From positions 1 to 31,212 of the IMG/VR virus record IMGVR_UViG_3300048835_000147: 31,212 bases of DNA; one strand, given 5' to 3'. The notes below the pieces were generated by a model. It was not told the origin of the DNA. It made no database searches and saw only the letters and a list, made by a program, of their open reading frames with translations. This document shows, one piece after another, positions 3,205-25,761 of the stretch. The DNA comes from a virus. How positions within the stretch are numbered: position 1 is the stretch's first letter; each line of letters begins with the position of its first letter. The position numbers and the translations under genes are program-made.

Positions 3205-3449
3205 CGGATGACGCGAAGACGAGCCCGACCGGGCCAATGTCAGCCATCGCCGCGCTGTCGGGGCGGTCGCTGACGGACCTGTACCGGCTCTTCCGCATGG
3301 AAGGGTCGCCGAGCCCGGTCGCGCACGTCGCGGGCGTGCCTGTGTACGACCTGGACCGCGCGATGACGTGGCTGCACCCGGAATCCGGGGCTGATGCGGG
3401 GCTGCTGGCGCGCGATGCGGTCGTGAAGCTCCAACCGCCGTCCGTATAA
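3201..3449 (+). CDS. Small unknown protein upstream of portal (82 aa)
   Basis: GTG 3201 overlaps the previous stop (GTGA), so it is the favoured start; ATG 3238 is the alternative. The protein reads SGRSLTDLYRLFRMEGSPSP and ends KLQPPSV, with a possible small helical core that might bind DNA or protein (LTDLYRLF, then VYDLDRAMTWL). I cannot place it in a family. Its TAA stop (3447-3449) lies inside the TATAAC of the portal promoter element, so gene end and promoter are superimposed. The terminase genes that usually precede portal are not here. Confidence 0.65.
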   Translation: MTDDAKTSPTGPMSAIAALSGRSLTDLYRLFRMEGSPSPVAHVAGVPVYDLDRAMTWLHPESGADAGLLARDAVVKLQPPSV

Positions 3450-3457
3450 CGGGTCCG
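3443..3457 (+). promoter_or_regulatory. CGTATAAC promoter element, copy 1 (portal)
   Basis: CGTATAACGGGTCCG differs from the consensus by one base. It lies 11 nt upstream of portal ATG 3469, with a GGGAGG ribosome site between. The TAA of the upstream gene lies within it. No -35 box is evident at the expected distance. Confidence 0.6.
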
Positions 3458-3468
3458 AGGGAGGATCG

Positions 3469-4899
3469 ATGGTCGTGCACGCGGAAAATCGGGGGATTCG
3501 AGGGCGCCTGCGCGCCTGGACCCCTTTGCGGGCGCTGACAGCAGCAGGTTCTCCTCTCGTCGAGGCCCGGCTGACTCCCGGTGGACCGATTCGGTCGCAG
3601 CCCGACTACATGGGCACTGCTGCGGAGCCGGCACGTCCGGATTCGATCCGCGCACGTTCGGAGGAGTGGCAGACGAAGGCTCTGCTCTACGCCGAGGCCG
3701 TTCCGGAGCTCGCGGGCGCCGCTGCGCTCGTTCGGGCGACGATGGAGGGCGTGACGTGGGTCGTCGAGGGCGGAAACGACGCGACTCGCAAGCGGATCCA
3801 GGCCCGCGTCGATGCGTTCGACAAGGAACGCGCTGCGGAGCTCATCTTCCTCACCGGCGACGCCTACATCGCGGTCCCGAACGATCCTGGCAGCGGAACG
3901 CCGGTCGAGGACGTCGAGGCGCCGTATTCGCTGTCCGTGGCCGAGATCAAGGTCGCGACTGACATCGGCCAGAAGGATCAGGTCAAGGGGCCGAACGGCG
4001 AGTGGGTCGACCTGGTCGAAGAGGGCTCCGACCGCCCGATTCCCTTCATGCGCGTCTGGCGCAAGTCGAAGTCGAACCGCTGGAAGGGCGCGAGCCCCGT
4101 CAAGGCGGCAATGGACCTGCTGGACGCGATGTACGTCGCGCAGATGGTCGATACGGCCACGCAGAACTCCCGGCTCGTGCACGCGGGCATCGTCTTCTGG
4201 CCGACGAACGCTCCGGACATTCCGGTGAAGGCCGGCGAGGATCCGACGCCCGGATCGCGCCAGGCCATGCTCGCGGAGTTCGTCAACGCGACGGACAAGA
4301 AGATCGACCTCATCAACAAGGGATTCGACGCCTCAAAGCCGTTCATCGTCATGTACGACCCCGGCAAGGGCGGCGAGGCGACGAAGTACCACCCGGAGAT
4401 GTTCCGCGTCGAGCGGGAGGATCTCGCCGAGCAGCGAGCGACCCGCGTGCAGACCGATCAGCTTCGGCTCGCCACCGCGCTCGAACTGCCCGTCGAGGCA
4501 GTGACATCGCAGGGCACGAGCGGCGCCAACCGCTTCTCGGTGCATCAGATCGACGTCGACAAGTGGAAGACGTGGGGATCGGCGTTCGACAAGCTGATCC
4601 GCGTCGAGTTCGAGAAGCGCATGGTCAAGCAGTACGGCAAGGAATACTCGCTCAAGACCGACTCCTCGAACCTCGTGAAGAAGCCCGACCAGACCGACGT
4701 GATCGTGAAGCTCGCGCAGATGGAGCAGGTCACGCCGGAGTCGGCGGTCCAGGCGCTCAAGGACGCCTCGATCGACGGGCTCGTGGCGCAGAAGCCGCCG
4801 GAGACGGGGCCGAAGCTCAACCGAGCTCCAGGTCAGCCGTCGGACTTCGGTCGCGGCGAAACCGATCGCGGTGGGGGCCGCTTCCGTGACACGCCATGA
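3469..4899 (+). CDS. Portal protein
   Basis: This 476-residue protein would form the dodecameric ring at the capsid vertex through which DNA enters and leaves. The start ATG 3469 has GGGAGG 4 nt upstream. Phage-portal features include a central IPFMRVWRKSKSNRWKGASPVKAAMDLL stretch (split here by position, about residues 192-219), which resembles the wing/stem region of siphovirus portals. A late segment LATALELPVEAVTSQG then SGANRFSVHQID (about 331-360) also fits. The C terminus is Gly/Arg/Pro-rich and probably disordered. The length is normal for actinophage portals. It overlaps the next gene by ATGA. Position ahead of protease and capsid supports the call. Confidence 0.85.
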   Translation: MVVHAENRGIRGRLRAWTPLRALTAAGSPLVEARLTPGGPIRSQPDYMGTAAEPARPDSIRARSEEWQTKALLYAEAVPELAGAAALVRATMEGVTWVVEGGNDATRKRIQARVDAFDKERAAELIFLTGDAYIAVPNDPGSGTPVEDVEAPYSLSVAEIKVATDIGQKDQVKGPNGEWVDLVEEGSDRPIPFMRVWRKSKSNRWKGASPVKAAMDLLDAMYVAQMVDTATQNSRLVHAGIVFWPTNAPDIPVKAGEDPTPGSRQAMLAEFVNATDKKIDLINKGFDASKPFIVMYDPGKGGEATKYHPEMFRVEREDLAEQRATRVQTDQLRLATALELPVEAVTSQGTSGANRFSVHQIDVDKWKTWGSAFDKLIRVEFEKRMVKQYGKEYSLKTDSSNLVKKPDQTDVIVKLAQMEQVTPESAVQALKDASIDGLVAQKPPETGPKLNRAPGQPSDFGRGETDRGGGRFRDTP

Positions 4900-5249: not shown

Positions 5250-5253
5250 CCCG

Positions 5254-5268
5254 CGTATAACGGGGCCG
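5254..5268 (+). promoter_or_regulatory. CGTATAACGGGGCCG promoter element, copy 2
   Basis: Exact consensus copy, 26 nt upstream of ATG 5295. An AGGAG ribosome site at 5284-5288 lies between them, so this transcript should have a leader of roughly 28 nt. Confidence 0.65.
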
Positions 5269-5294
5269 ACACCGAACCTTCGCAGGAGATCTCA

Positions 5295-5672
5295 ATGCCC
5301 GTCGCACATGGAGCCACCGTCACCGTCGCAGCCGAGGCCGCCAACGCCCGCGCCGTCAGCATCCAGTTGACCGGCTCGATGCGCCAGGCGCTCACCGGCC
5401 GCGCGACCGTCCGTGGATTCGTCACGTCCGACGCCGCCGGCCTGGAGGCCGTCGAGTTCGTCGGCGACGACACCGTGCCCACCGTCGGCGCGAAGGGCGA
5501 CCTGCTCTCCGCTTCCGGCGCCGTGTTCGAGGCGCTCTCGAACGCGACTGGCGAGGTCGATCTGGTCCTCACGAACGCGAGCGACCAGGCGAAGACGCGC
5601 TACCTCACGCTCGACGCAGGCGGTCGCCTGCTCGATCCCGTCGCGATCGTCTTCGCCGACGACACGCCCTGA
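5295..5672 (+). CDS. Small β-rich head protein, possible decoration protein (125 aa)
   Basis: ATG 5295 has AGGAG 6 nt upstream and its own TATAAC promoter element. The protein is Ala/Val/Thr-rich with alternating strands: ATVTVAAEAANARAVSIQLT, then GDLLSASGAVFEALSN and a terminal GGRLLDPVAIVFADDTP. It has no Cys and no membrane segment. It fits a compact β-sandwich, and its place between portal and protease next to the capsid gene suggests a capsid decoration or minor head protein. No motif proves this, and an adaptor role is possible. Confidence 0.6.
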   Translation: MPVAHGATVTVAAEAANARAVSIQLTGSMRQALTGRATVRGFVTSDAAGLEAVEFVGDDTVPTVGAKGDLLSASGAVFEALSNATGEVDLVLTNASDQAKTRYLTLDAGGRLLDPVAIVFADDTP

Positions 5673-5691
5673 TCGGGGCGGCTCGGCCGGG

Positions 5692-5706
5692 CGTATAACG
5701 GGGCCG
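5692..5706 (+). promoter_or_regulatory. CGTATAACGGGGCCG promoter element, copy 3 (protease, leaderless)
   Basis: Exact consensus copy whose last G is the first base of the GTG start codon at 5706. TATAAC ends 6 nt before the start, so initiation at the start codon (a leaderless mRNA) is predicted. No ribosome site is present. Confidence 0.65.
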
Positions 5707-6656
5707 TGAAGCGCATCCCGACACTCCTGGACTTCCAGCCGAACCTCGATCTCGAGGGCCGGCGAGTCTCCGTCGATCGCGACAGTGGTCGGATCGCGGT
5801 TCGCGTCGCCAACTACGGCGAAGTCCACTCCGGGTTCGGCCCGGAGGTCAAGGTGCCGCGCAACGCGAACCTCGATGCCGCGCACGTCGGTACCGCCGAC
5901 CTGCCGGACGGATCGAGCCTGCGCGTGGCGGTGCTGCCGATGCACACGGCACACGCGCCGGCCAACCTCCAGGCGCTCCACGCGGCCGCATGGTACGAGA
6001 ACTCCGGCCTGGGCGTCGCCCGTGGTCGGTACTCGACCGACGAGAGTGGCGTGCGCTTCGACGGCCTGCTCTTCGACGACATCACCGACGCGCAGATCGA
6101 CCGGCTGACCGCCGGCTCCGCGTCGGGCGACTGGCGATCGGCAATCGCCCTCAAGTCGTTCGGTGACTTCGAGCACGCCCCAGCCGATTTCGTCGGAAGC
6201 TGCCTCGTCAACATCGGCGGCTACTCCGACACCTACCGCCAGGCGCCCGCCGAGCGGTTCGCCCTCGTTGCATCCGCAGCGGGGGACTTCATCTCGATCG
6301 AGGACGCGACAATGACCGGCACGCTCACCGCAGGCGCAGGCGACTCCAACGGCGACGGCGCAGCCGCGCTGCCCGACGGCTGCAACGGTGCGTGCACCGG
6401 CTGCGACTGCCAGACCGGGACGACCGACGTCAACACCGGCGCCGACGGAGCGGGCGACGTCGTGACGATCACGGCCTCCGCGCTCCTGGAGCTCGTGGAG
6501 GCGTCGGGCGACCAGTTGCTCGGCACGCCGGTTCTCGAAGAGGCGAAGACCGTGCTGGTCGCGGGCGGCTTCATGGAGGCTCCGAACCCGGACGCCGAGC
6601 GGCTCGCACGCCTGGAGCAGCACTACATCGACTCGGTGTTCAACGCCGCCGACTGA
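5706..6656 (+). CDS. Prohead (capsid maturation) serine protease
   Basis: The 316-residue protein should cleave the scaffold-like part of the capsid protein during prohead maturation. Residues 79-85 (MHTAHAP) supply the candidate catalytic His. Residues 138-143 (SASGDW) match the serine motif S-x-SGDWR of actinophage prohead proteases. Between them FDGLLFDDITDAQ is the usual linker of that family. The C-terminal third (about 200-316) is a low-complexity Gly/Asp stretch with a Cys cluster (CNGACTGCDC, about 227-236) and a terminal helix that may guide it into the prohead. The GTG start sits on the end of a promoter element with no ribosome site, implying leaderless and perhaps modest expression. 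Placement right before the capsid gene supports the call. Confidence 0.8.
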   Translation: MKRIPTLLDFQPNLDLEGRRVSVDRDSGRIAVRVANYGEVHSGFGPEVKVPRNANLDAAHVGTADLPDGSSLRVAVLPMHTAHAPANLQALHAAAWYENSGLGVARGRYSTDESGVRFDGLLFDDITDAQIDRLTAGSASGDWRSAIALKSFGDFEHAPADFVGSCLVNIGGYSDTYRQAPAERFALVASAAGDFISIEDATMTGTLTAGAGDSNGDGAAALPDGCNGACTGCDCQTGTTDVNTGADGAGDVVTITASALLELVEASGDQLLGTPVLEEAKTVLVAGGFMEAPNPDAERLARLEQHYIDSVFNAAD

Positions 6657-6668
6657 CCTGGCGACGGC

Positions 6669-6704
6669 CGTGCGTATAACGGGGCCGAAGCGACTTTCAA
6701 CACC
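6669..6704 (+). promoter_or_regulatory. Promoter element copy 4 with conserved 5' UTR (capsid)
   Basis: CGTGCGTATAACGGGGCCGA (6669-6688) is identical to the tail-tube copy at 13288-13307. TTTCAACAC then follows at the same distance in both (6695-6703 here). The shared block extends beyond the promoter into the transcribed leader. A GAGGGG ribosome site follows at 6710-6715. Confidence 0.7.
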
Positions 6705-6721
6705 GCCATGAGGGGCAAGCC

Positions 6722-8467
6722 GTGAACGTCAAGGAACTGCAGGACAAGCTCGAGGCGCTCCGCGCCGAGCTCGCCGAGATCAAGTCCGGAGATCGCACGC
6801 CGGAGACGGCCGAGAAGCTCACCGCGAAGCGCGCCGAGATCGCCGAGGCGCAGACTGAGCTCACGGCAGCGGAGGCCCAGGCCGCCGAGGTCGAGGCCGC
6901 GTTCGCGGATGCCGACGGTGACGAGGCTCCGGCCGCGCCTGCCGACGGTGACGGCGACGGCACCGGCGACGCGGCTCCCGCCGCTCCCGCTGCTCCTGCA
7001 ACCCCGGCGACTCCCGCTGCTCCCGATGCTCCGGCTGACGGCGACGCGGGCGGCGCTGGCGACGGCGCTGCGACGGGCGGCCCCGTGGCCCTGGCAGCTT
7101 CCGGTGCGGGCGACCGCGCTGGCGGCGACGCCGGCAACGACGCCGACGCGATGCAGCCGATGGTCCTCACTGCCTCCGGCAGCGCAGGCCAGGCCGGGCT
7201 CACGCCGGGCATGAAGCTCGACCGCGACTCGCTCGGCTCGATCCTCACCGCTGCGGGCGCCGCAGCGGGCGTGATCTCGCCCCGCACGCGCGTCGTGTCG
7301 ATCGACCGCTTCGGCGAGGGCGTCGAGCCCCTGTCGAACAACCTCTCCACGATGGAGAACACGCGGCTGCTCGCGAAGGCGCGCGGCGACTTCGCGAAGT
7401 CGAAGATCGGCAACAACCGCCCCGTGGCGCTCACCGCCGCCGGCTGCTTCTGTGGCCCGGACGAGCTCATCCGCACGACCGGCGTGGTCGGTCGGCGCGG
7501 CCGCCCGTTCGCGGCGATGTTCCCGACCATCCCGATCTCCGGCGGCTTCCGAGCCATGCCGGACCTCGCGTTCAACGTGGACACCGGGCTCCGCTCCGGC
7601 GTCTCGCAGTGGACGTGCACCGACCAGGGCGACGTGGACCCGGACGCTCCGGGCACCTGGAAGCCCTGCGCGGAGATCGAGTGCTTCACGGAGGCGACCT
7701 ACGAGCCCTACGCGGTCGTGGCCTGCGTGACGGTCGAGCGGTTCCACCGCTGGGCGCACCCGGAGCAGGTCGATGCCTGGATCAACCTGCTCGGCATCGA
7801 GTACGACTCGCTCGCCGAGACGCTCCTGATCGACCAGATCGAGGCCGAGGCCGGCACGCCGCTCACCGTGGGCGACACCGGCGACCTCATGGCCGACCAC
7901 TCGCTCGTGGCGAAGATCATCTACGCCCTGTCCAGCATGGCGTACCCGCTCGGGTACCAGTTCCGCGAGGGTGCCGGCGTCCTGGAGGGCTACACGCTCT
8001 CCGTGCCCGTCGGCATGGCCGAGGCGCTGTACGCCGACGAGAAGCTGCGAGGCTTCCCGTCGGGGATCAACTCGAAGGAAGCGATCGTCGCGGCCATCGA
8101 GAGCGGCACCGGCGTCCGGATGGTCGAGCGACTCGACGAGAGCACGTCGCGCAAGGCGGCGGCTGCGGCCACCGTCGCGGCGATGAACGCGGGTGGCGCG
8201 ATCGACGACGCCACCACGCCGCTGCTCCCGCCCACGTTCCGGATGTACCTCATTCCGCTCGAGGGCTACGTCCACGGCGAGGGCACGATCGTCTCGGCCG
8301 ACTGGCATGTGGACGACCCGCTCCTGCGCCAGAACAAGCTGCGCTACTTCCTGGAGAACGCCGAGATCCTGGCGAACCTCTCGGTGCGCAAGCCGCACAT
8401 CATCGACGTTCCCGGCGAGATCAAGGGCTCCTACACGGACCTCGTGCTCGCACCCGGCAACGTCTGA
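6722..8467 (+). CDS. Major capsid protein with fused scaffold-like N terminus (581 aa)
   Basis: This protein forms the icosahedral shell. GTG 6722 has GGGG 6 nt upstream. Residues 1-60 are a coiled coil (KELQDKLEALRAELAEIKSG), the expected delta/scaffold domain. Residues about 60-150 are an Ala/Pro/Gly/Asp-rich linker, probably disordered and removed by the protease at 5706. The HK97-like body follows. Its end, FRMYLIPLEGYVHGEG then DDPLLRQNKLRYFLENAE, matches the C-terminal pattern of actinophage capsid proteins. No separate scaffold gene is visible. The shared promoter/UTR block with the tail tube fits high expression. An intergenic hairpin follows at 8497-8536. A five-codon frame (ATG 6708) overlapping the GTG is probably accidental. 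Confidence 0.85.
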   Translation: MNVKELQDKLEALRAELAEIKSGDRTPETAEKLTAKRAEIAEAQTELTAAEAQAAEVEAAFADADGDEAPAAPADGDGDGTGDAAPAAPAAPATPATPAAPDAPADGDAGGAGDGAATGGPVALAASGAGDRAGGDAGNDADAMQPMVLTASGSAGQAGLTPGMKLDRDSLGSILTAAGAAAGVISPRTRVVSIDRFGEGVEPLSNNLSTMENTRLLAKARGDFAKSKIGNNRPVALTAAGCFCGPDELIRTTGVVGRRGRPFAAMFPTIPISGGFRAMPDLAFNVDTGLRSGVSQWTCTDQGDVDPDAPGTWKPCAEIECFTEATYEPYAVVACVTVERFHRWAHPEQVDAWINLLGIEYDSLAETLLIDQIEAEAGTPLTVGDTGDLMADHSLVAKIIYALSSMAYPLGYQFREGAGVLEGYTLSVPVGMAEALYADEKLRGFPSGINSKEAIVAAIESGTGVRMVERLDESTSRKAAAAATVAAMNAGGAIDDATTPLLPPTFRMYLIPLEGYVHGEGTIVSADWHVDDPLLRQNKLRYFLENAEILANLSVRKPHIIDVPGEIKGSYTDLVLAPGNV

Positions 8468-12107: not shown

Positions 12108-12131
12108 TCTGACGCGCAGCTTGCAGGGCCG

Positions 12132-12148
12132 CCGCTAGGATAGCGGGC
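12132..12148 (+). promoter_or_regulatory. Leaderless-type promoter inside a small palindrome
   Basis: CCGCTA (12132-12137), GGA, TAGCGG (12141-12146) is a perfect inverted repeat. The -10-like TAGGAT (12136-12141) spans its centre, exactly 7 nt before ATG 12149, the same geometry as at 2748 and 15794. The palindrome could serve as an operator. Confidence 0.5.
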
Positions 12149-13207
12149 ATGGCTCGCATCCCGAAGATCAGCATCCAGGGCTGGACCGAAGACGGTCCCG
12201 CGTACACGATCCACCGCACGCTCGCCGGCTGGCGGCACCGCAAGCACCGTCGCCAGGGCAACGCGCTCAACGCGAACGAGCTCGTCGGGCCGCACCCGGA
12301 CCTGCCGGATGCCGAGCTCCCGGAAGACGTGGGCGCCTCGTTCATGGTCTTCGCCGTGGGCGAGGTCGAGGTCCAGGCGTTCCGTCGCGGCCATGTGTAC
12401 GAGGCCACGCTGCTCGTTGACGGCGACGCCGTGAACGTGCTCGTGGATGCTCGCGGCGATCACGAGGTCCAGGAGTATGCCACCGGCATCACGCTCCTGT
12501 CGTGGCGCGTGCTCGAAGGCGAGGAGCTCGAATCCGCGATCGAGCACGGCCCGGCGCTCGCGTCGAACGTCAGCGACGGCGCCGAGTCGCAGGAGCCGCA
12601 GGGCGACCACCTGCACGAGACGCTCGTGGCCGACGCCGACAACGCCGACGATCCGATCGTCACGCTCACCGGCGCCCAGGTCGAGGAGATCTCCGAGACG
12701 GCCGCGCTGCTCGACGCGGCGCTCACGCCCGGCACGCCGGAGCACGAGCAGGTCGTCGCCAACATCGGCGAGATCGCCACCGAGATCGCAGCGGGCGGCA
12801 TGGTCCCGTCCGAGGCTGTGGCCTACCAGGTCGAGGACTCCACGGCGGCGCCCGATCCTATCGCCGAGCCCGCGCCCGACCTGGAGATCTCCGACGAGGC
12901 CGTGGGCAACATGGCTGCGATCGTGGAAGCCCTCGCCGACGAGAGTCTCACCGATGAGACTCCCACCGAAGAGACTCCCACCGAAGAGACTCCCGCTCCG
13001 GAGCTCACCGTCGAGGACGTGATGGTGCAGCGCCAGCGCTGGGAAGAGCTCGAAGCGAAGTTCGCCGCCGACCAGATCACCGACGAGGAGCTCGACGAGC
13101 TCCAGTCCTTCCAGGACGCCGCGCGCGCTGTGGCCGAAGGCTCGATCGGAGACGACGAGGACGCGGTGGGGGGCGCCGACGACCTCGCCTCCGACGAGGA
13201 GGAGTAG
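12149..13207 (+). CDS. Highly acidic unknown protein (352 aa)
   Basis: ATG 12149 lies 7 nt after a TAGGAT -10 and has no ribosome site, implying leaderless expression. Residues 1-50 are basic (RHRKHRRQ near residue 31), then the chain becomes strongly acidic. A middle compact region (about 60-130, FMVFAVGEVEVQAFRRGHVYE) may be folded. The rest is low-complexity with ETPTE repeats at about 270-282 and an Asp/Glu-rich end (DEDAVGGADDLASDEEE). Helical segments (EELEAKFAADQITDEELDEL) suggest partial coiled coil. It could be an assembly or scaffolding-type factor or a nucleic-acid mimic, but no domain supports either. A strong terminator follows. Confidence 0.7.
   Translation: MARIPKISIQGWTEDGPAYTIHRTLAGWRHRKHRRQGNALNANELVGPHPDLPDAELPEDVGASFMVFAVGEVEVQAFRRGHVYEATLLVDGDAVNVLVDARGDHEVQEYATGITLLSWRVLEGEELESAIEHGPALASNVSDGAESQEPQGDHLHETLVADADNADDPIVTLTGAQVEEISETAALLDAALTPGTPEHEQVVANIGEIATEIAAGGMVPSEAVAYQVEDSTAAPDPIAEPAPDLEISDEAVGNMAAIVEALADESLTDETPTEETPTEETPAPELTVEDVMVQRQRWEELEAKFAADQITDEELDELQSFQDAARAVAEGSIGDDEDAVGGADDLASDEEE
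12956..12994 (+). repeat. 15-bp tandem repeat within the acidic gene
   Basis: GAGACTCCCACCGAA occurs twice in perfect tandem (12956-12970 and 12971-12985), with a third partial copy to 12994. It encodes ETPTE units in the low-complexity region and may vary in copy number between relatives. Confidence 0.8.
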
Positions 13208-13234: not shown

Positions 13235-13262
13235 GAGGGGGGCTGCTTCGGCGGCCCCCCTC
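13235..13262 (+). terminator. Strong rho-independent-type terminator
   Basis: GAGGGGGGCTGC (13235-13246) pairs with GCGGCCCCCCTC (13251-13262) around a TTCG tetraloop, 12 bp with one G-U wobble. A modest pyrimidine tract (CCCTTTCCT) follows. It closes the unit ending at 13207, just ahead of the tail-tube promoter. Confidence 0.85.
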
Positions 13263-13287: not shown

Positions 13288-13323
13288 CGTGCGTATAACG
13301 GGGCCGAGAGCGATTTCAACACA
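13288..13323 (+). promoter_or_regulatory. Promoter element copy 5 with conserved 5' UTR (tail tube)
   Basis: The 20 bp CGTGCGTATAACGGGGCCGA (13288-13307) matches the capsid-gene copy exactly, and TTTCAACAC (13314-13322) lies at the identical offset. An AGGAG ribosome site follows, 6 nt before GTG 13334. Confidence 0.7.
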
Positions 13324-13333: not shown

Positions 13334-14068
13334 GTGGCAGAGAAGTGTGTCAACCTCGGTTGCCCGGAAGTCATCCGTCTGGCCCTGGCCGATGCGTGCT
13401 CCGGCGCGCCGGTCCCCGGTCCAGCGAACGGCATGGCCCTGCGCTGCCAGCGCAACGTCACGATCGAGGCCCGCATCCGCGAGGCTGACACGTCCGAGTT
13501 CGTCTCGGACTGCGGCCAGGTCGACGAGTACGTCCAGGATGCCTACGTCCAGGGCTACACCGTCAGCTTCGAGAGCGCGCGCATCTCGCCCGAGCTCCAC
13601 GCGCTGCTCCTGGGCTACGACCTGCTCGCGATCGGCGGCGAGAACGTCGGCTTCATCGAGGAGGCGTCCGTCGGCTGCACCACGCAGACCGTGCGCCCGT
13701 CCTTCATCGTGGAGGCGTTCTACCGCGTTCGCCAGTGCGACCCCGGCGGTGGCTCCAACTACCTCCGGCGCGTGCTCCAGGGCGTCAAGTTCAACCCGGT
13801 CGAGCAGGACAAGGAAGGCCAGATCGTCTTCGAGCGCTACACGGGCACTTCGGTCCCGGCGCTCACGGCCGGCCTGGTCAACCCGGTCAGCGACACGGGC
13901 GGTCCCTACCAGGACTTCCCGGCTGACATCGTGACGGAGATCGGCGCGCTTCCGGCCGGCCACCTGAACGTCGGCCTCCGCTGGGTGGACCCGATCGCGT
14001 CGCCGACCAACGGCGTCACGCTCGAGGCCGGCACCTGCTACACCGCCGAGGTTCCGGTCGACGCCTGA
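13334..14068 (+). CDS. Major tail tube protein
   Basis: GTG 13334 has AGGAG 6 nt upstream. The N-terminal pattern KCVNLGCPEVIRLALADACS then GAPVPGPANGMALRC is characteristic of actinophage tail tube proteins. EEAS-type strands and the segment CGQVDEYVQDAYVQGYTVSF, then SPELHALLLGYDLL, are also characteristic. It has 244 residues, near the family norm. It would polymerise into rings around the tape measure. Its promoter and leader match those of the capsid gene, which fits very high expression. The position is odd: it precedes the head-tail adaptor and neck genes instead of following them. Confidence 0.75.
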   Translation: MAEKCVNLGCPEVIRLALADACSGAPVPGPANGMALRCQRNVTIEARIREADTSEFVSDCGQVDEYVQDAYVQGYTVSFESARISPELHALLLGYDLLAIGGENVGFIEEASVGCTTQTVRPSFIVEAFYRVRQCDPGGGSNYLRRVLQGVKFNPVEQDKEGQIVFERYTGTSVPALTAGLVNPVSDTGGPYQDFPADIVTEIGALPAGHLNVGLRWVDPIASPTNGVTLEAGTCYTAEVPVDA

Positions 14069-16670: not shown

Positions 16671-16685
16671 CGTATAACGGCTGCG
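16671..16685 (+). promoter_or_regulatory. CGTATAAC promoter element, copy 6 (tape measure, leaderless)
   Basis: CGTATAACGGCTGCG differs from consensus at two places in the GGGGCC part. TATAAC ends 8 nt before ATG 16687 and no ribosome site is present, so a leaderless or near-leaderless tape measure mRNA is predicted. Confidence 0.6.
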
Positions 16686-16686
16686 A

Positions 16687-19600
16687 ATGGCGGGCAATCG
16701 CGACATCCACGGGTCCGTCGTCCTCGACGTCAAGGTCGACGGCGAGCAGACCGCGAAGCAGCGACTCGAGAGCGCATTCGCGACCCTCGAAGCGAACGTC
16801 AACGTCAACGCTGACTTCAACAAGGCCCAGGTCCAGGCCGCGCTCACCGCCGCCTCGAAGGGGCTCTTCGTCAAGGTCGGCGTGGTCTTCGACGACGGCG
16901 ACGCGAAGCGCAGTTTCCGCGATATGGAGCGGCGCCTGGACGCACTCACGCTCGCGCGCGAGAAGGCCGCGCTCGACGGCGCGAAGGCCGAGAAGAAGGC
17001 CAACGAGTCGATCCGCGTGGACAACGCGAAGACCGGCAACGCCCGCAAGCGCGTCAACGACCAGATTCGCCTCTCGACCGAGAAGACGGCGAACTCCTGG
17101 GTGGCTGCCGAGAAGAAGGCCAACGAGTCGATTCGCCTCGACTACACCCGCACCGCGAACCATAAGGTGCGCCTCGACAACGCGAACCGAGCATTCCACG
17201 AGCGCATCGAAACCGGCCTGACCGCGTTCGAGCTCCGCGAGCTCGAGAAGCGCGAGACGGCCCGCGTGACGTCTGCCACCCGGTCCAACGACAAGGTGCG
17301 CACGCAGCAGTCGAAGGGCGAGCAGGACCGCGCGACCGCCCGCGAGCGCGGCCTGGTTCGCCTCGACGTGCTCGAAGACCAGCACTTGAAGCGACTCGAG
17401 CAGTACGAGGCCGCAGCCGCCCAGCGGCGTGCCGTCATCAACTCGCAGCTACAGGCGCGGATCGCGGCGCAGAACAACCTCTTCGAGCAGCGCCAGGAGA
17501 TCGCGCGCCAGCGCGTGCAGGACCGGCTCAACGCGAAGCCGCTGATCCAGCGCATCCTCATCAACTCGAACCAGATCAACCAGTCGCTCGCGGAGTTCGA
17601 CCGCACCGTGTCGCGCGTGCTGCGCACGTCGCTCACCGCGTTCACCGTCTGGTCGGCCGGCGTCGCGCTCGCGTTCGGAGCCGCCGCTACTGCCGGCGTC
17701 GTTGCGTTCGCGCGCCTGGAAACGTCTGCCACGCGAGCGGCTGCGATCGTCGCCTCCGACGCCTTCAACGAGTCGCTGCTCAAGAACGGGCGCGGCATCA
17801 CGAACTTCGCCGAGGTCAGCGAGAATGCGCAGAAGCGGATCACGGAGGCGTCGTCGAAGATCGCGCTGACCACGCTGTTCTCGCCGACCGAAGTCACCGA
17901 GGGCGTCCGGTCGCTCCTGCAGGCAGGCCAGGATCTCGAGACTGCTCTGCTCAACATTGGACCCGCTGCCGAGTTCGCGCAGATCAACGAAATCGAGCTC
18001 AAGGAAGCGACCGACGGGCTCGCAGCCGGCCTCGACTCCGCTGGCCTCCAGGCGAAGGACTCGGGCGCGCTGCTCGACAAGTTCGCGTTCGTCGCGCAGA
18101 ACGCGCTCGGCGAGGCCAGCGACTACATGACGGCGTTCGCCAACAAGTCGGCCGCCGCCGCCCGCGCGTTCGGCTTCTCCAACGACGAGGCGCTGACGCT
18201 GCTCGCGCTGCTCGGAAAGACCGGCACGCTCGGCGAAGAGGCCGGCACCCAGGCCAACATCGTCTTCCGCGAGCTCTCGCGCGGCGCCGGTCGTGCTGGC
18301 AAGGCGTGGCAGGACGCGGGCATTGACATCAACGGCCCCTTGAACGAGATGATCTTGAAGATCGGCACGCTCGCCGCCGAGGTCAAGCGCACGCAGGGCC
18401 GCGCGGGTGTCGCGCAACTCGCGGAAGAGCTCGGCCTGACGTTCCGATCCGTGTCGTCGATCCTGCAGATTCTCCCGAAGGCGCAGGAGCTCGGACTCGA
18501 CGGGCTCAACCAACTCACCGAGGGCATCTCGAAGTCGCAGGGCGCCGTCGCTCGCCAGTCGGAGGAGCTCAAGAAGACGATCGGGTTCCAGTTCGACAAC
18601 CTGCTCGACTCCTTCTACGTCGCCTTCGCGAAGTTCGGCGAGGCGGCGTCGGACAACGTGACCAGCCTCTTCGACAAGCTCGCGGGCTCGGGCGGCCTGA
18701 TCGACCAGGCGACGCCTCGCGTGATCGAGTTCGGCGAGCGCTTCGGCGCGCTGATCGGCCGCATCGCAAACTTCCTTGACACCGACAGCTTCAAGAACGG
18801 CGTAGCCACTCTCGTCGAGTCTATCGAGGTCACGATCCGAGGAGTCAGCGAGGCGTTCGCGGCGTTCTCCGCTGCGTTCGACAACGCCGAGAAGGGCGCA
18901 TCCACGTTCGAGAACGTGGCGACCGCGATCCTGGCATTCGCACGGGTGTCGGCAACGGTCCTGCCCGCCTTCGCTCGCATCCTGGGAACGGTCTTCGACT
19001 TCCTGATCGACAACGCAGATGCCTTCGAGACGTTCGCGAAGCTCACGCTGGGCGTGTACGCGCTACGCAAGGCGTACTCGCTGCTGATCCTCCCGCTGCT
19101 CACCGCCGCCGACGGCATCCGGAAGATTCGCGCCGCGCTGATCGCCGCGACCGGAGCCGAGGCTGCGAACACCGTCGTCGGCGGGATCGCGCGCGTCGCC
19201 GATGCCTACGGCCTGCTCGGGAAGCAGGCGGCGTCGGCCGCCGCGAGCATCGAGCTCGTGCAGGTTGCCAACTCCACGGCGTTCCCGACCCTGGGTCGTG
19301 GCGCGGCTGGCGGCGTTGCGGCGAAGGGTGCGACAGGCAACGGCGCCACGACCGCTGCGGTCGCCGGCAACGCGGCCCTGCTCGCGCCGGAGCTCTCCCG
19401 TGTCTTCAAGGGCGGCGCCGGTGGAGCGAACGCCGCTCGCGCCGCCACCGCCTTCGAGACGATCACGCCGGCTGTGGCGAAGGGCGCAGGCCCGATCGGT
19501 CGGATCACCGCCCTCTTCGTCAAGCTGGGCGACGTGTTCGCGAAGCTCGTGCCGGGCTTCATCAAGGGGCTGCCGCTGATCGGACGCCTGGCGACCGGGT

Positions 19601-22600
19601 TCGCGAAGTTCGCCGGGCCGGTCGGTATCGTCATCGCGCTCATCGACGGCGCCATTGGAATCTTCAAGGGCTTCTTCGAGGAGATCTCGAAGACAAAGGA
19701 CGAGAGCTCGGAGGTCGGGCGCACGTTCGCGGAGCTCAAGCCGATCTTCGACGCCGTGTTCGCCAGCGCGAAGGTCGCGTTCGCAATCCTCTTCGACGTG
19801 CTCGCTGTCGTCGGCCGAGTCGGTCAGTCGATCGGACGGCTCTTCGGCGGCCTGTTCAACGACATTCTCATCAACTTCGGCGACGTCATTCGCGGGATCA
19901 AGGCGCTCTTCAATGGAGAGTTCACCGTCTTCCTCAAGGCGTTCGGCGACGTCATCATCAACTCGATCACCGCCCCGTTCCGTCTCGCGATCGGCTTCGT
20001 CATCGATCTCGTCGCCGACCTGCTCGGCAACCTCGAGAGCGTCCCCGTGATCGGCGGCAAGATCGAGGGCGTGGCCGACGGACTGCGTGGCGCTGCCAGC
20101 GCGACGCGCGACCTGCGCGTGAACATGAGCGCCGCCGAGGTCGAGGCCGACAAGGTGGCGACGTCCACCGGCGAGATCGACCTGGCAACGCAGCGCGCCG
20201 CGCTCTCCGCGAAGGATCTCGCCTACCAGAACCAGACGGTCGCCCGCGTCGCCTCGCTCTCCGCGCAGGTGTTCGAGCGCGCCGCCGCTCGCTCCGTCGT
20301 GCAGATCGACCGCACGAAGGCCGCCACGGTCGGCGCTGACGGCGCGGCGCGCAACCTACTCGGAACCGTCGGCGGGATCACGCCCACCTTTCAGGGCATG
20401 GCCGATGCCGGCGTGGTCGGGCTCTCCCGCATCGAGTCGGCGGCGAGCGCCACGACCGCCGAGCTCCTCGCGATGCAGGCGGCTCTCCAGGCGGGGCTCG
20501 GCCAGGCCGCCAACGCGCAGAACTCGATCATCGACTCGGCGCAGCAGTTCGCGCTCTCGGAGGCCCAGGCCGGTCGCGGCGCGCTGTCCGTCGAGCAGGT
20601 CCAGGCCAACATCGCAGCGCAGGCAGAGCAGCGCCGACGCGACCGCCTCGTTGCGGCAGCGCGCAAGTCGCGCCGCGACCAGAAGATCATCGAAGACGCG
20701 CTGGGCACCGACGAGCTCGGCAGCCTGGACGCGACCGACACCGGCGCGGCGGCGAAGCCGATCCAGCGCGAGTTCATCGATCCGGACGACGCGGTGCAGG
20801 CGGCGATCGACCGACTCAAGCCCGCGCGGAAGATCGCCGAGACGAACGCGCTGATCTCGAAGGTCGTCGGCGACGCCGGCAAGTCCTACCAGTTGACGCG
20901 CCGCGACACGATCCTTCTCGCCGAGACGATGCCGCGCATTGACAAGGCGATCGAGGTCCAGAAGAAGAAGGTCGAAGAGCTCACGACCGCGCTGGACACG
21001 CTCCGCAACGTGCAGATCAAGGGCACCCAGGCGTTCTCCGACGCGGCGTTCGAGAACGAGCAGGCGATCAAGCGACTCCAGTTGCAGCGTCTCGACACGC
21101 TCGCCGTCCCCGGCACCACCGAGGAGTCGGCGGCAGTCAAGGCGATCGACGACCAGATCAAGGCGCTGCAGACGACCGCCGAGCGCGCGTCGCTCGTCGA
21201 GTCACTCGAGCTCGACCCGCTCCGTCGCAAGCTCGAAGAGACGTTCAACCCGGTCAAGGAAGACACGTTCGCCAACATCATCAAGAGCTTCAACGAGCTC
21301 TCGGCGGCGCAGGAGACGCAGACCGCGAAGCTGACGAGCCAGGAGGCAATCCAGGCGAAGCTCAACGAGCGGCTGACCGGCGCGCAGGAGCGCTACACGA
21401 AGATCGACGAGGCCGCGCAGAAGTCGGTCGAGGCGTTCAACAAGGCACAGAGCGCCGCAGCCGAAACCGCCACGTCGCTGTCGTCGGTTGGCACGTCGGC
21501 GTCGGCCGGCGCGCGCAGCGTCAACCGCTACTCCGATGCCGTCGAGAACGTCCCGACCGGCAAGGGCGTCGTGGACAAGTCGCTCAAGGGGATCAACGAT
21601 CGCGTCACCGAGCTCGCCTCGCAGTTCACCGGCGCCGGTGCCCGCGTCGTCACGCTCTACACGCGCGGAATCAACCAGGCGCTCGTGGACGTTCTACAGC
21701 CGGCCCTCGCCACTGTCGTCGAGCGCACGCTGATCTACCTCCGCACTCCGATCGCTCCGGCGGCGAAGGCTGGCGAGGCGATCATGGGCGGGTTCCTGGC
21801 CGGCATGAAGGAAGGGTTCGGATCGCCGGAGAAGATCGGCTCCGTCGCCTGGTACCTCAACGTCTTCATCCCGAAGTGGATCCGCGAGAACAAGGGTCCG
21901 GTCGCCTATGACGCGACGATCCTCGTGCCCGCAGGCCAGGCCGTCATGGAGGGCTTCGGCAAGGGTCTTCGCGGCGGGTTCGCCCAGATCCAGTCGTTCG
22001 TGAAGGACGTTGGCCCGTCGCTCAAGGAGTTCATCAGCGCCGATGCGTTCTCCGGGCGCACGGCGACGATCATGGCTGACATCGCGCTCGGCAAGTCGCC
22101 CGACGTCAACGCCGCCTTCGAGGACATCAAGGCGGCGATGGTCGTCACCGCCGGCAGCTTCCCCGGCGACGCCGATCCGAGCCTGTCGTTCCTGCACCCG
22201 ACGCTCTCGCTGGCCGACACGATCCAGCAGGCGTTCGGCATCATCAAGGCGCTCGGCGGCGGGCTCAACACCGGCGGCCCAGGACAGATCTCGCGGCCCG
22301 ACGGCTCGACCTCCAACAACTCGCGCCACGAGGACGGCGTGGCGGCTGACATCGGCACGGGAACCTCGCAGCCGACGGCCGCCTCCCTCAAGCTCTTCGA
22401 GCAGGCGAAGAAGCTCCTCGGCTCCGTCTTCCGGCAGGTCATCCACAACGGCGTCGGCCTCACCGCTGGCGGCGGCTCGTTCCCGGACAGCCAGCACTTC
22501 GATCACGTCCACCTGGAGTGGTTGCAGGGGCTCGGCTTCAACGAGAACTCCGGGAAGATCGGCAAGCCGCCCGTCGTGGACATCCCCGGCGCGCCGCCGC

Positions 22601-23250
22601 AGATCGACGCGGCGCTCAACGCGGCCTCGAAGAAGTACGGCGTCGAGCTCGCGCTGGTTGCGGCTGTCGCGAAGCAGGAGTCGGGCTTCCGTCCGAACGT
22701 CACGTCGCCCGCTGGCGCCGGTGGCCTCATGCAGCTTATGCCCGCCACGGCGCGTAGCCTCGGCGTGTCCAACGTGTTCGATCCGTTCCAGAACGCCGAC
22801 GGCGGCACGAAGTACCTCAAGCAGCTTCTTCAGCGCTTCGGCGGCCGCTACAACCTCGCGATGGGCGGCTACAACGCCGGCCCGAACGCGCCCGGTCTGG
22901 ACGAGGGACAGCTTCCCCCGTACTCCGAGACGCGCAACTACGTCCGGCTGGTCACGAGCTACCTCGAGGACTTCCGTCGCAAGTTCGGCGGCTTCCGCGA
23001 AATGGGCGGCGGCGTGCAGGCGGGCAAGGCATACGTCGTGGGCGAGAAGCGCCCGGAGATCTTCGTGCCCAACCGCGCCGGCACGATCCTCCCGGACGCC
23101 GCCGCTAGTCTGTCCAGCGCCGGATCGACCTACCAGGACAACCGCACCATCAACAACACGATCAACACGCAGGCGAGTGACCCGGAGGCTGTCGCCGACG
23201 TCTTCGACGCCCGCACGCGGTCCAGCATGACCGGAGTGATCTTCCGATGA
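16687..23250 (+). CDS. Tail tape measure protein with M15-type and SLT cell-wall domains (2187 aa)
   Basis: It sets tail length and should help DNA enter through the cell wall. Residues about 25-300 are coiled coil with a 40-residue repeat (EKKANESIR units). Hydrophobic stretches lie near residues 319-342 and 978-998, and long charged helices run to about 1750. A peptidase M15-like domain shows SRHEDGVAAD (1879-1888, the SxHxxGxAxD zinc motif) and DHVHLEW (1939-1945). A lytic transglycosylase (SLT) domain follows, with KQESGF (catalytic Glu 1998), GLMQLMP (2013-2019) and YNAGP (2062-2066). The C-terminal GEKRPEIFVPNRAGTILP is typical of tape measures. It begins without a ribosome site right after a TATAAC element and overlaps the next gene by ATGA. 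Confidence 0.95.
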   Translation: MAGNRDIHGSVVLDVKVDGEQTAKQRLESAFATLEANVNVNADFNKAQVQAALTAASKGLFVKVGVVFDDGDAKRSFRDMERRLDALTLAREKAALDGAKAEKKANESIRVDNAKTGNARKRVNDQIRLSTEKTANSWVAAEKKANESIRLDYTRTANHKVRLDNANRAFHERIETGLTAFELRELEKRETARVTSATRSNDKVRTQQSKGEQDRATARERGLVRLDVLEDQHLKRLEQYEAAAAQRRAVINSQLQARIAAQNNLFEQRQEIARQRVQDRLNAKPLIQRILINSNQINQSLAEFDRTVSRVLRTSLTAFTVWSAGVALAFGAAATAGVVAFARLETSATRAAAIVASDAFNESLLKNGRGITNFAEVSENAQKRITEASSKIALTTLFSPTEVTEGVRSLLQAGQDLETALLNIGPAAEFAQINEIELKEATDGLAAGLDSAGLQAKDSGALLDKFAFVAQNALGEASDYMTAFANKSAAAARAFGFSNDEALTLLALLGKTGTLGEEAGTQANIVFRELSRGAGRAGKAWQDAGIDINGPLNEMILKIGTLAAEVKRTQGRAGVAQLAEELGLTFRSVSSILQILPKAQELGLDGLNQLTEGISKSQGAVARQSEELKKTIGFQFDNLLDSFYVAFAKFGEAASDNVTSLFDKLAGSGGLIDQATPRVIEFGERFGALIGRIANFLDTDSFKNGVATLVESIEVTIRGVSEAFAAFSAAFDNAEKGASTFENVATAILAFARVSATVLPAFARILGTVFDFLIDNADAFETFAKLTLGVYALRKAYSLLILPLLTAADGIRKIRAALIAATGAEAANTVVGGIARVADAYGLLGKQAASAAASIELVQVANSTAFPTLGRGAAGGVAAKGATGNGATTAAVAGNAALLAPELSRVFKGGAGGANAARAATAFETITPAVAKGAGPIGRITALFVKLGDVFAKLVPGFIKGLPLIGRLATGFAKFAGPVGIVIALIDGAIGIFKGFFEEISKTKDESSEVGRTFAELKPIFDAVFASAKVAFAILFDVLAVVGRVGQSIGRLFGGLFNDILINFGDVIRGIKALFNGEFTVFLKAFGDVIINSITAPFRLAIGFVIDLVADLLGNLESVPVIGGKIEGVADGLRGAASATRDLRVNMSAAEVEADKVATSTGEIDLATQRAALSAKDLAYQNQTVARVASLSAQVFERAAARSVVQIDRTKAATVGADGAARNLLGTVGGITPTFQGMADAGVVGLSRIESAASATTAELLAMQAALQAGLGQAANAQNSIIDSAQQFALSEAQAGRGALSVEQVQANIAAQAEQRRRDRLVAAARKSRRDQKIIEDALGTDELGSLDATDTGAAAKPIQREFIDPDDAVQAAIDRLKPARKIAETNALISKVVGDAGKSYQLTRRDTILLAETMPRIDKAIEVQKKKVEELTTALDTLRNVQIKGTQAFSDAAFENEQAIKRLQLQRLDTLAVPGTTEESAAVKAIDDQIKALQTTAERASLVESLELDPLRRKLEETFNPVKEDTFANIIKSFNELSAAQETQTAKLTSQEAIQAKLNERLTGAQERYTKIDEAAQKSVEAFNKAQSAAAETATSLSSVGTSASAGARSVNRYSDAVENVPTGKGVVDKSLKGINDRVTELASQFTGAGARVVTLYTRGINQALVDVLQPALATVVERTLIYLRTPIAPAAKAGEAIMGGFLAGMKEGFGSPEKIGSVAWYLNVFIPKWIRENKGPVAYDATILVPAGQAVMEGFGKGLRGGFAQIQSFVKDVGPSLKEFISADAFSGRTATIMADIALGKSPDVNAAFEDIKAAMVVTAGSFPGDADPSLSFLHPTLSLADTIQQAFGIIKALGGGLNTGGPGQISRPDGSTSNNSRHEDGVAADIGTGTSQPTAASLKLFEQAKKLLGSVFRQVIHNGVGLTAGGGSFPDSQHFDHVHLEWLQGLGFNENSGKIGKPPVVDIPGAPPQIDAALNAASKKYGVELALVAAVAKQESGFRPNVTSPAGAGGLMQLMPATARSLGVSNVFDPFQNADGGTKYLKQLLQRFGGRYNLAMGGYNAGPNAPGLDEGQLPPYSETRNYVRLVTSYLEDFRRKFGGFREMGGGVQAGKAYVVGEKRPEIFVPNRAGTILPDAAASLSSAGSTYQDNRTINNTINTQASDPEAVADVFDARTRSSMTGVIFR
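16987..17136 (+). repeat. 120-bp-spaced direct repeat in the tape measure coiled coil
   Basis: A 30-bp segment starting GCCGAGAAGAAGGCCAACGA at 16987 recurs at 17107 with one mismatch. It encodes AEKKANESIR at a 40-residue period, suggesting internal duplication in the length-determining region. Confidence 0.75.
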
Positions 23251-24668
23251 CGCTCGCTCCCTCCTACGCCTGCTTCGGCTGCCAGTCGTTCGCCAACAAC
23301 GCACGGACGCAGGCGTACATCGCCTGGGCCTGCATGAACGGGCGCTTCAAGGGCGACCCGTCCGGGATCCTGCGGATGTCGCGCTCGTGGTGCACCTGCC
23401 CGGACGACCTGGAGGAGTGGACCAACCCGATCGACGACCAGGCGTGCTGGTACGACCCGCTGATCCCGGAGTCGGCTGACTTCCTGGGCGTCGTGATCGA
23501 GGGCATCGGCGGGCTGCGCACGAGCACCTTCAAGCGCGAACTGCTGACCGCGCTCGGTCGCGGCTCGATCCTCGGGCAGCCGACGGTCGAGGGCAAGCAG
23601 ATGGTCCTCGAAGTGCTGATCGTGGCGACGTCGATCGCCGGGCAGAACTACGGCATCCAGTGGCTCCTCCGGCAGTTCGAGGACGACCAGCGCTGTCCGG
23701 CCGACGGCGCCTCGTGCGCGTCGTGCCAGGGCCAACTCTTCACGGTGCGCACGCACTGCCCGGACGACGACGACCTCGACCGTGGTCTTCACTCGTGGGG
23801 CGCCGCCGGCACCATCGACGGCTTCGTTCCGGACGACGACCGCTTCCCGCTCGGCCGCAACAACTGCGAGAAGGTGCTGGCCGGATCGCTGACGATCGCG
23901 ACCGAGCAGGCCGACAGCTACTCGACCGAGCCGATCTCCACCACGACCGTCGACATCAGCAGCAGCTTCCAGGCGCTCGGCAACTGCCTGATCGGTGGCG
24001 GCGGCCCGACGCTGGACGACGTGTGCTGCCCGATCTGCGCCACCGGCTGCGACCCGTGCACCACCGATCCGGGCTGCGACTGCATCCCGCCCTTCCTGCT
24101 CGAACCGGAGATCTTGACCAACGTCGCCCCGTGCCTCACGGAGCCGGTCTGCCGGTGCATCTCGTCGGCCCAGATCATCAACCTGCCGTCCGGCTACGAC
24201 ACGGCCCTGCGGCTGACATTCCACGCCGGATCGAACCCGGAGCCGACTCCGCAGGGCATCGCGTTCCAGCGCTTCGGGATGCGCAACGCCGTCTTCCGCG
24301 TGTTCGAGCGACCCGCGATCGAGGAGCTCGAGAACGGGATCGTCATGCCGACCACGGTCGAGCAGTACGACGCGCTCGTGGAGCGCATCACGCCCTGCGT
24401 CGAGGTCGGCGTGTCGTGGATCCCCGCCGGCTCCGAGCTCGTCGTTGACGGCCTCTCGGGTCGCTCCTGGCTCAAGTGCCAGGGTCGCTGCGTGGATCAC
24501 TCCAACCGGGTCGAGGTCATCAGCGGAGAGATCTTCCCGCTCAAGGCCCGCTGCACGGATCTCATCATCACGGTCGAGTGGGACTGCCTCAACTCGCAGG
24601 GAGTCGTCGGCCCGTCCACGATCCTGTCGAGCTTCGACGTCGAGGCGTTCCTGGGATTCAAGCTGTGA
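23247..24668 (+). CDS. Minor tail protein, probably distal-tail-like (473 aa)
   Basis: ATG 23247 overlaps the tape measure stop (ATGA). The protein immediately after the tape measure is usually the distal tail protein that joins the tube to the tip. It is strikingly Cys-rich (about 29 Cys), with clusters ADGASCASC, DDVCCPICATGCDPC and PGCDCIPP at about residues 150-280. These suggest a disulfide- or metal-stabilised insert between two β-rich halves (WGAAGTIDGFVPDDDR; later TALRLTFHAGSN). The identity is based on position and architecture, not on a clear motif. Confidence 0.65.
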   Translation: MTLAPSYACFGCQSFANNARTQAYIAWACMNGRFKGDPSGILRMSRSWCTCPDDLEEWTNPIDDQACWYDPLIPESADFLGVVIEGIGGLRTSTFKRELLTALGRGSILGQPTVEGKQMVLEVLIVATSIAGQNYGIQWLLRQFEDDQRCPADGASCASCQGQLFTVRTHCPDDDDLDRGLHSWGAAGTIDGFVPDDDRFPLGRNNCEKVLAGSLTIATEQADSYSTEPISTTTVDISSSFQALGNCLIGGGGPTLDDVCCPICATGCDPCTTDPGCDCIPPFLLEPEILTNVAPCLTEPVCRCISSAQIINLPSGYDTALRLTFHAGSNPEPTPQGIAFQRFGMRNAVFRVFERPAIEELENGIVMPTTVEQYDALVERITPCVEVGVSWIPAGSELVVDGLSGRSWLKCQGRCVDHSNRVEVISGEIFPLKARCTDLIITVEWDCLNSQGVVGPSTILSSFDVEAFLGFKL

Positions 24669-25753
24669 CAACTCCCACCTGCATGATGCGAGGCTACGGG
24701 ATCGCGCTCGTGAAGAACGGCGTGAAGCTCGGCACGGCCGGCGCGCAGATCCAGCGCATCGAGTATGACCGCGTGGTGGACGGGATCTCGAAGGCGAAGA
24801 TCGACCTCGTGACCGCTGGCGACAACTGCTGCGGTCAACTCGCTGCAGTGGATCACTGGAACACCGACCTGCTCATCACGACGTACAACTCGCAAACCGG
24901 CCTGGACGAAGTGCTGTGGCGCGGCCCGGTGCGCAAGCCGACGTTCCGGCGCGGCTCGGTCACGATCGAGGCGACTGACGTCCTGTCGTGGCTCCAGGTG
25001 CGAATGCTCGAACAAGCCTTCGACTTCGTGAACGAGGACGTGTCCGACATCTTCATCGACCTCGCGACCTACGCGCTGTCGAAGGATCCGAACCATCAGC
25101 CGGTGTACGAGTTCGTGCGCTACCTCTCCGGCACCACCGAGTCGCGCAAGGTCGAGACGGCCGCGCTGCGCATGACGTGGAACGTCGTCACCGAGATGCT
25201 CAACGCCGGCCTGGACGTCACCACGTTCGGGTCGCGGATCGTCGTCGGCGTCCCCGCGTTCACGGCCATCGAGCTCAAGGATACGGACGTGCAGGGCACG
25301 AACCCGGCCGAGATCGCGAAGGACGGCGACGAATACATCAACCGGGTGCTCGCCAGCGCCAGCCGCGACGTCGTGGGCATCTGGCCGCCCGGCCCCGCCA
25401 CCGGATCCGACGGGTTCCCTCTCGTCGAGGGCTCGCTGTCGGACTCTCAGCTTCCCGACGTCGATTCGGCCACCGCTGCTGCGAAGGCTCGCTACGAGTT
25501 CGCCGCCGGTGGCGTTCGCCGAGTCCGGGCCTCCGGCGGGCTGATCCTGCTGCCGACGTCGGGCATCGACCACCGCAAGCTGATCGCCGGCCAGATCTTC
25601 AACTACCAGGCCACCGAGACGTGCTACGCGGCGAAGGAGTCGCTGCGCCTGGGTCGGCTCGCCAACGTCGTCGAGAAGGGCGGCGAGCGCGTCACGATCG
25701 ACCTGCAGCCGGTCGGTTCCTTGCAGGGCGACGCTACGCTGTCCAGCGTATAA
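24665..25753 (+). CDS. Minor tail protein, probable tail-tip hub (362 aa)
   Basis: GTG 24665 overlaps the previous stop (GTGA). The start CMMRGYGIALVKNGVKLGTA, the segment YDRVVDGISKAKIDLVTAGD, and LWRGPVRKPTFRRGSVTIEA followed by DVLSWLQVR match the hub domain pattern of second tail-tip proteins in actinophages. That pattern has a W-G-P-V strand and a D-x-L-x-W-L motif. It likely forms the ring under the distal tail protein that bridges to the fibres. Its TAA (25751-25753) lies in the TATAAC of the next promoter element, as for the gene before portal. No enzymatic domain is visible. Confidence 0.65.
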   Translation: MTTPTCMMRGYGIALVKNGVKLGTAGAQIQRIEYDRVVDGISKAKIDLVTAGDNCCGQLAAVDHWNTDLLITTYNSQTGLDEVLWRGPVRKPTFRRGSVTIEATDVLSWLQVRMLEQAFDFVNEDVSDIFIDLATYALSKDPNHQPVYEFVRYLSGTTESRKVETAALRMTWNVVTEMLNAGLDVTTFGSRIVVGVPAFTAIELKDTDVQGTNPAEIAKDGDEYINRVLASASRDVVGIWPPGPATGSDGFPLVEGSLSDSQLPDVDSATAAAKARYEFAAGGVRRVRASGGLILLPTSGIDHRKLIAGQIFNYQATETCYAAKESLRLGRLANVVEKGGERVTIDLQPVGSLQGDATLSSV

Positions 25754-25761
25754 CGGGGCCG
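25747..25761 (+). promoter_or_regulatory. CGTATAACGGGGCCG promoter element, copy 7
   Basis: Exact consensus copy 7 nt before ATG 25769, with GGAGG in between. A TACGCT element of the other family (GACGCTACGCT, 25731-25741) lies just upstream, so two promoter types sit in tandem. The upstream gene's TAA is inside the motif. Confidence 0.65.

Follow-up and report, generated by a model that had tools for sequence, protein, structure and literature searches.

The question raised by this locus is what function is served by a short, near-identical element that recurs along the late region of a phage genome, each time just ahead of a gene. The window analyzed here, i.e., the whole stretch of 31,212 bases, carries leftward genes at 1-1870 and, from ~2600, a long block of rightward genes, as delineated by GC content by codon position and ORF lists, with a phosphoesterase gene at its right end; the early region of the phage lies outside it. 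No named phage matched the window at the DNA level, and the closest named phages by structural protein were almost all actinobacterial, with 24-36% identity. Because these nearest structural proteins are actinobacterial and the GC content of the window is 68%, the host was presumed to be an actinobacterium, and the phage would be an uncultivated siphovirus of the actinobacterial type. The structural genes, assigned by comparison with PHROGs, and two ORFs preceded by the element are as follows:

3469..4899, + strand: portal protein gene (phrog_776, E 1e-13)
5295-5672, + strand: ORF of 125 aa, preceded by motif copy 2
5706..6656, + strand: head maturation protease / portal-fusion-like gene
6722..8467, + strand: major head protein gene (phrog_777, E 7e-19)
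13334..14068, + strand: probable major tail protein gene (weak match to phrog_792, E 3e-4)
from 14089: head-tail adaptor gene
16687..23250, + strand: tape measure gene with a C-terminal lysozyme-like domain
23247 and 24665 (24665-25753): tail genes
25769-25960, + strand: ORF of 63 aa following the tail genes, preceded by motif copy 7

A search of the window for CGTATAACGGGGCCG that tolerated no more than 3 mismatches returned seven copies of a 15-base motif, (G)CGTATAACGGGGCCG(A), all of them on the plus strand and five of them perfect 15-mers:

Copy 1, 3443..3457, + strand: CGTATAACGGGTCCG, 1 mismatch; precedes the portal gene at 3469; predicted +1 at 3457
Copy 2, 5254..5268, + strand: perfect; precedes ORF 5295-5672; predicted +1 at 5268
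Copy 3, 5692..5706, + strand: perfect; its final G doubles as the initial base of the GTG start codon of 5706-6656; predicted +1 at 5706
Copy 4, 6673..6687, + strand: perfect; precedes the major head protein gene 6722-8467; predicted +1 at 6687
Copy 5, 13292..13306, + strand: perfect; precedes the probable major tail protein gene; predicted +1 at 13306
Copy 6, 16671..16685, + strand: CGTATAACGGCTGCG, 3 mismatches; precedes the tape measure gene 16687-23250; predicted +1 at 16685
Copy 7, 25747..25761, + strand: perfect; precedes ORF 25769-25960; predicted +1 at 25761

When 100 dinucleotide shuffles of the window were searched in the same manner, the mean number of matches was 0.95, and seven were reached in none of them (0/100). 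A weight matrix built from the seven copies scored them at 22.4-27.1, and no other site on the two strands exceeded 9.7. Over both strands of the 31 kb, the hexamer TATAAC was found seven times, always within a motif copy. Among the sites far above background, none was located within a gene or on the minus strand; the copies are thus found only ahead of genes on the plus strand, and not at the equal density within genes or on the minus strand that an earlier note on this DNA had named as the outcome speaking against a promoter role. That note had also counted an eighth, degenerate member. The site in question at 29894..29908 (+), CGTATCCTGGAGCCG, scored 7.5 and fell below or level with the chance sites at 17836, 19892, 30438 and 20054, which lie within genes and on the minus strand; moreover, it is situated within the last ORF as called in its long frame. 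Since this score is that of the background, the family was reduced to seven members, whose positions and common strand were as originally described.

With the first C of the 15-mer counted as 0, the information content was high between -1 and +15. Neither this measure nor the weight matrix revealed a common upstream sequence across the seven copies, including the -35 region, and a TTGACA-like element was not found 16-18 nt upstream of any of them, in agreement with the initial impression that a common -35 is missing. The GGGGCC discriminator is usual but not universal among the copies, and the -7 position is C in all seven, so that the ANNNT pattern is absent from the motif. In two cases, as had been pointed out, the stop codon of the upstream gene is built into the element: copy 1 includes the TAA (3447-3449) that ends the small ORF before it, and copy 7 includes that of the upstream tail gene (25751-25753).

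The placement of the copies was in good agreement with that of promoters. In line with the 0-35 nt given in the earlier note, every copy ends 0-34 nt ahead of a rightward start codon, an arrangement with a probability of about 9e-11 under random placement. Setting TATAAC at -12 to -7 leaves a 6-nt discriminator and brings +1 to the invariant G (offset 14), and the conservation ends at this predicted +1/+2. The predicted leaders for copies 1-7 are 12, 27, 0, 35, 28, 2, and 8 nt long, respectively. Shine-Dalgarno tetramers were present within the predicted leader of all five leadered genes (8-35 nt) and of neither gene with a 0-2-nt leader (5706-6656 and the tape measure gene at 16687), the corresponding figure for the whole window being 13 of 28 start calls with a tetramer in the tested range. 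Copy 3 is thus predicted to yield a leaderless transcript of 5706-6656. Upstream of copy 5, a strong intrinsic-terminator-like hairpin was found at 13235..13262 (+), with a 12-bp GC stem, -28.9 kcal/mol, and a T-containing tail after it, and a weaker form was also obtained. The leader of the major head gene (copy 4) contains the element GCGACTTTCAACAC at 6690..6703 (+), a second copy of which, GCGATTTCAACAC, is located at 13310..13322 (+) in the leader of the major tail gene (copy 5); the common part GCGA(C)TTTCAACAC occurs nowhere else in the window.

In Mycobacterium smegmatis, 79% of the mapped promoters have ANNNT, G and A are dominant at +1 and C at -1, and 24% of the transcripts whose start was mapped carry no leader; in mycobacteria, leaderless mRNAs and promoters poor in -35 sequence are common (PMC6448022). 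The window motif resembles mycobacterial SigA promoters in the proximity of its -10 to the start codon, in the C at -1 and the G at +1, and in that a -35 is unneeded (PMC6448022). In contrast, C instead of T occupies -7 in 7/7 copies, so that neither ANNNT nor TANNNT is found, and the conservation runs through the discriminator. At 12130-12151, within the late block, TAGGAT is located 7 nt ahead of the ATG at 12149, and this site is possibly a leaderless promoter of the host type (SigA).

A single relative was found, an IMG/VR contig of 36.2 kb (loci L068-L072) retrieved through the tail protein encoded at 24665-25753 (49% match). It is syntenic with the window from the C terminus of the tape measure protein to the right-end phosphoesterase, with 34-54% protein identity for most genes, and the homologous part of the window holds exactly one motif copy. 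Over both strands of all 36.2 kb, TATAA[CT] occurs only once, as TATAAC at L068 6000-6005, directly after the homologue of 24665-25753 and hence at the junction orthologous to copy 7; the distance to the next ATG is 15 nt in the relative versus 14 nt in the window. Using the base composition, we estimated the chance of finding TATAAC at the orthologous spot within a few bases as <1e-3. The discriminator of the relative reads ACTGGT and the flanks are changed, and the 15-mer was not found in the left 16 kb of the relative. The conserved block of TATAAC plus GGGGCCG noticed at the outset thus holds within the phage, but in the relative, where the comparison rests on the one site orthologous to copy 25747, only TATAAC and the spacing are kept. 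The TATAAC of the relative lies inside a perfect 6-bp dyad, CCAGTG-ATATAA-CACTGG.

Searches of IMG/VR with the major head, portal, head-tail adaptor, and tape measure proteins, and of the GTDB genomes with the head protein and one tail protein, returned no relatives. The exact 15-mer had 4 matches in IMG/VR, none with the multi-copy pre-gene pattern, and a relaxed pattern with 14 fixed bases gave 46 single matches, none of which was a family. One viral contig among the 15-mer matches (L008) carries an unrelated two-copy repeat of its own, GGTTATACGCCCCGTATAACGGGGC, an interrupted dyad, at 4434 and 969 (minus strand).

The search for a sigma or activator gene that the earlier note had recommended was negative in the window, from which the early region is missing, by Pfam, PHROGs, and tblastn, and positive in the relative. 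The rest of the contig of the relative consists mostly of leftward genes, including those for the terminase large subunit, ThyX, a dNMP kinase, methylases, and an SNF2-type helicase, and its rightward gene L069:18611-19363 encodes a sigma-70-family protein of 250 aa (phrog_351, E 1e-26). This protein scored above the TIGR02937 cut-off and matched Pfam region 2 at 1.7e-6 (above the cut-off) and region 4 at 4e-4 (below the cut-off). In an alignment with SigA, its region 2.4 reads TVATPWIHTRAQRTI versus TYATWWIRQAITRAI in SigA, the positions that read the -10 being changed from WW to PW and from RQAIT to HTRAQ, and no match to region 1.2 was found. As the pocket for T at -7 is formed in part by sigma region 1.2, its absence would fit the C at -7. 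The likely ATG of the gene is preceded by TAGCAT and then 8 nt, which may represent a promoter of the host type, as would befit an early gene. A second candidate, P0007 (L069:8117-8638, minus strand; 173 aa), is similar to T4 gp55 in size and layout, although it showed only a weak region 2 match (Pfam E 0.008). For the two sigma-like proteins, structure prediction from single sequences gave poor models, which were not used.

From these observations, we propose that the seven elements constitute a class of late promoters driving the virion genes and read by a holoenzyme with a phage sigma factor or co-activator, a reading to which, as a whole, we assign a probability of about 0.62. RNA polymerase would recognize the elements mainly via TATAAC at -12 to -7, and the 6-nt discriminator, usually GGGGCC, would be followed by initiation at the invariant G. 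The reader would be the host core polymerase together with a sigma (or a co-activator) that the phage encodes and produces early in infection, the two copies fused to start codons giving leaderless mRNAs and the other five giving short leaders with a Shine-Dalgarno site. That the copies are promoters is strongly indicated, and it seems probable that a phage sigma or co-activator reads them; such a factor is the most likely reader because the elements have neither a -35 nor the T at -7 favored by the housekeeping sigma. The placement, the strand bias, the leader and Shine-Dalgarno geometry, the terminator, the kept TATAAC, and the sigma gene of the relative support this proposal, and all of them also lend weight to the suggestion made in the earlier note, namely promoters peculiar to the phage that have a -10 box and no -35 and might be recognized by a sigma or activator of its own. 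Against the proposal stand the facts that the comparison with the relative covers a single orthologous site, that the sigma of the relative has region 4, which normally reads a -35 absent from the motif, that the discriminator, the strongest part of the motif outside TATA, is not kept in the relative, and that the window, which lacks the early region, holds no detectable sigma gene. As a more specific and still tentative version, a phage sigma without region 1.2 might read TATAAC with C at -7 as a -10-only promoter, and the protease and tape-measure mRNAs might be leaderless and late.

The elements could instead be promoters used by the SigA holoenzyme of the host in its unmodified form, or by an alternative sigma of the host; TATAAC would then be an ordinary -10, and the GC-rich discriminator would signal strength or timing. 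TATAAC agrees with TATAAT at 5 of 6 positions, and the paucity of -35 elements and the leaderless mRNAs would be nothing unusual in a mycobacterial setting (PMC6448022). We nevertheless regard this explanation as unlikely: C at -7 in 7/7 copies is set against ANNNT in 79% of M. smegmatis promoters (PMC6448022), the host-type site in the window (TAGGAT before 12149) differs from the motif, and seven near-identical 15-mers exceed the uniformity that housekeeping promoters need.

Sites for a phage repressor or regulator in the late-gene gaps, either operators or stoperator-like, with an incidental TATA core, were also considered. The stoperators of Cluster A mycobacteriophages are of a similar sort, being short asymmetric intergenic repeats in a single orientation that stop transcription, each a 13-bp asymmetric site bound by the phage repressor, and the perfect 6-bp dyad at the site of the relative would suit such a protein. 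However, the relative keeps TATAAC and not the flanks, the dyad strength in the window was not significant (p 0.056), no copy lies in an early or divergent region, and the placement is promoter-like, with copies fused to start codons or upstream of Shine-Dalgarno sites, all of which renders this explanation improbable. No repressor was identified in the window. Even less probable than such binding sites is an RNA-level hairpin or leader motif, similar to SAS, that controls the translation or stability of late mRNAs. Although the copies are always directly ahead of start codons and local hairpins can be drawn at several of them, the spacing between motif and start codon ranges from 0 to 35 nt, the Shine-Dalgarno sites lie outside the motif, and the kept part is TATAAC; no hairpin or dyad conserved across the window copies was accepted (arms of 3-6 bp, p 0.056). 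Finally, recombination or mosaic-boundary sequences common to gene modules and devoid of a regulatory role would account for the location at gene boundaries, but hardly for the overlap with stop and start codons, the fixed strand, the Shine-Dalgarno geometry, or the survival of the TATAAC core alone in a diverged relative, and this explanation carries next to no weight.

Dispersed phage promoters are known as a general kind, whereas this motif and its pairing with the sigma gene of the relative are new. The late promoters of T4, read by gp55, are about 50 in number and have a -10-only design with a sliding-clamp activator (PMC2988020). Like the window motif, they have a TATA-type -10, no -35, and many copies before virion genes, although T4 has ~50 copies against seven in the visible part of the window. 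The segment directly downstream of the TATA box is AT-rich in T4 and GGGGCC in the window motif, a T4 feature that the latter does not share. The T4 reader is a phage sigma-like factor (gp55), as is proposed for the window motif; T4 employs a region-2-only factor with gp33 and the sliding clamp, and the relative encodes a region 2 plus 4 sigma together with the weak region-2-only candidate P0007.

The nearest case in the literature comes from the Cluster EC Microbacterium phages (Quhwah, KaiHaiDragon), which are the best database match for one tail protein of the window. It is an 18-bp intergenic motif, TAGaCTATaGGTgTaAgC, in twelve copies of one orientation, 21-30 bp ahead of starts, in phages with an annotated sigma gene, and its describers call its role unclear (PMC7302621). 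The two motifs are alike in being asymmetric, in one orientation, and in many copies within small gaps just before starts. They differ in that the EC motif mostly precedes non-structural genes and stands 21-30 bp from starts with Shine-Dalgarno sites, whereas the window motif precedes only virion genes at 0-35 nt, with two leaderless cases; the window motif does not match the EC sequence TAGACTATAGGTGTAAGC. We confirmed nine EC motif copies in positions 1-50000 of KaiHaiDragon (L067), and seven of the nine were accompanied ~19 nt upstream by a second block (CTAAC...GATTAGAC), which the window motif lacks. These two-block sites (2565, 3439, 5105, 11384, 37168, 41175, and 44895) suggest a two-part promoter, and the block is not mentioned in the available portion of the description (PMC7302621). 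For the EC gene with the sigma annotation (77 aa), Pfam gave no match and PHROGs an HTH family, so that its sigma label is weak. Since neither the EC nor the T4 sequence equals the window motif, the latter would represent dispersed phage-specific promoters outside both families.

The SAS/ESAS elements of Cluster K mycobacteriophages, GGGATAGGAGCCC, lie immediately upstream of starts and are linked by those who described them to translation initiation (PMC3203893). They share with the window motif the character of short, conserved, asymmetric repeats beside start codons, but their sequence differs, and the window motif has a -10 box and a variable spacing of 0-35 nt and precedes or stands apart from the Shine-Dalgarno site, unlike SAS. 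A promoter for a single-subunit T7-like polymerase, i.e., a ~20-bp block including 5-17 nt upstream of +1, was rejected on account of the little conservation upstream of CGTATA. The Skermania phage SPI1 (L064) carries about 20 copies of a CACGGTGACCGTGCTA-like dyad repeat, which are probable operators.

Many actinobacterial phages have dispersed intergenic motifs, the role of which is called unclear by those who described them (PMC7302621). In the window motif, a clear promoter geometry is joined by a core that survives in a diverged relative and by the phage sigma gene of that relative. If confirmed, the motif-sigma pair would provide a model for the switch to virion genes in such phages, along with a case of leaderless late mRNAs for virion genes.

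The non-coding stretch between the leftward and rightward genes contains two copies of a direct repeat, TAAAAGGGT(C/T)TGTGTCA, at ~2555-2610, ahead of which lie nested GCAATGC-type inverted repeats at ~2400-2480. Beside the structural region, the product of 2596-3204 (+) matched the Acb2/Tad1 hairpin domain (PF24729, E 1e-5, just below the cut-off), and is possibly a cyclic-nucleotide sponge against CBASS/Thoeris defence.
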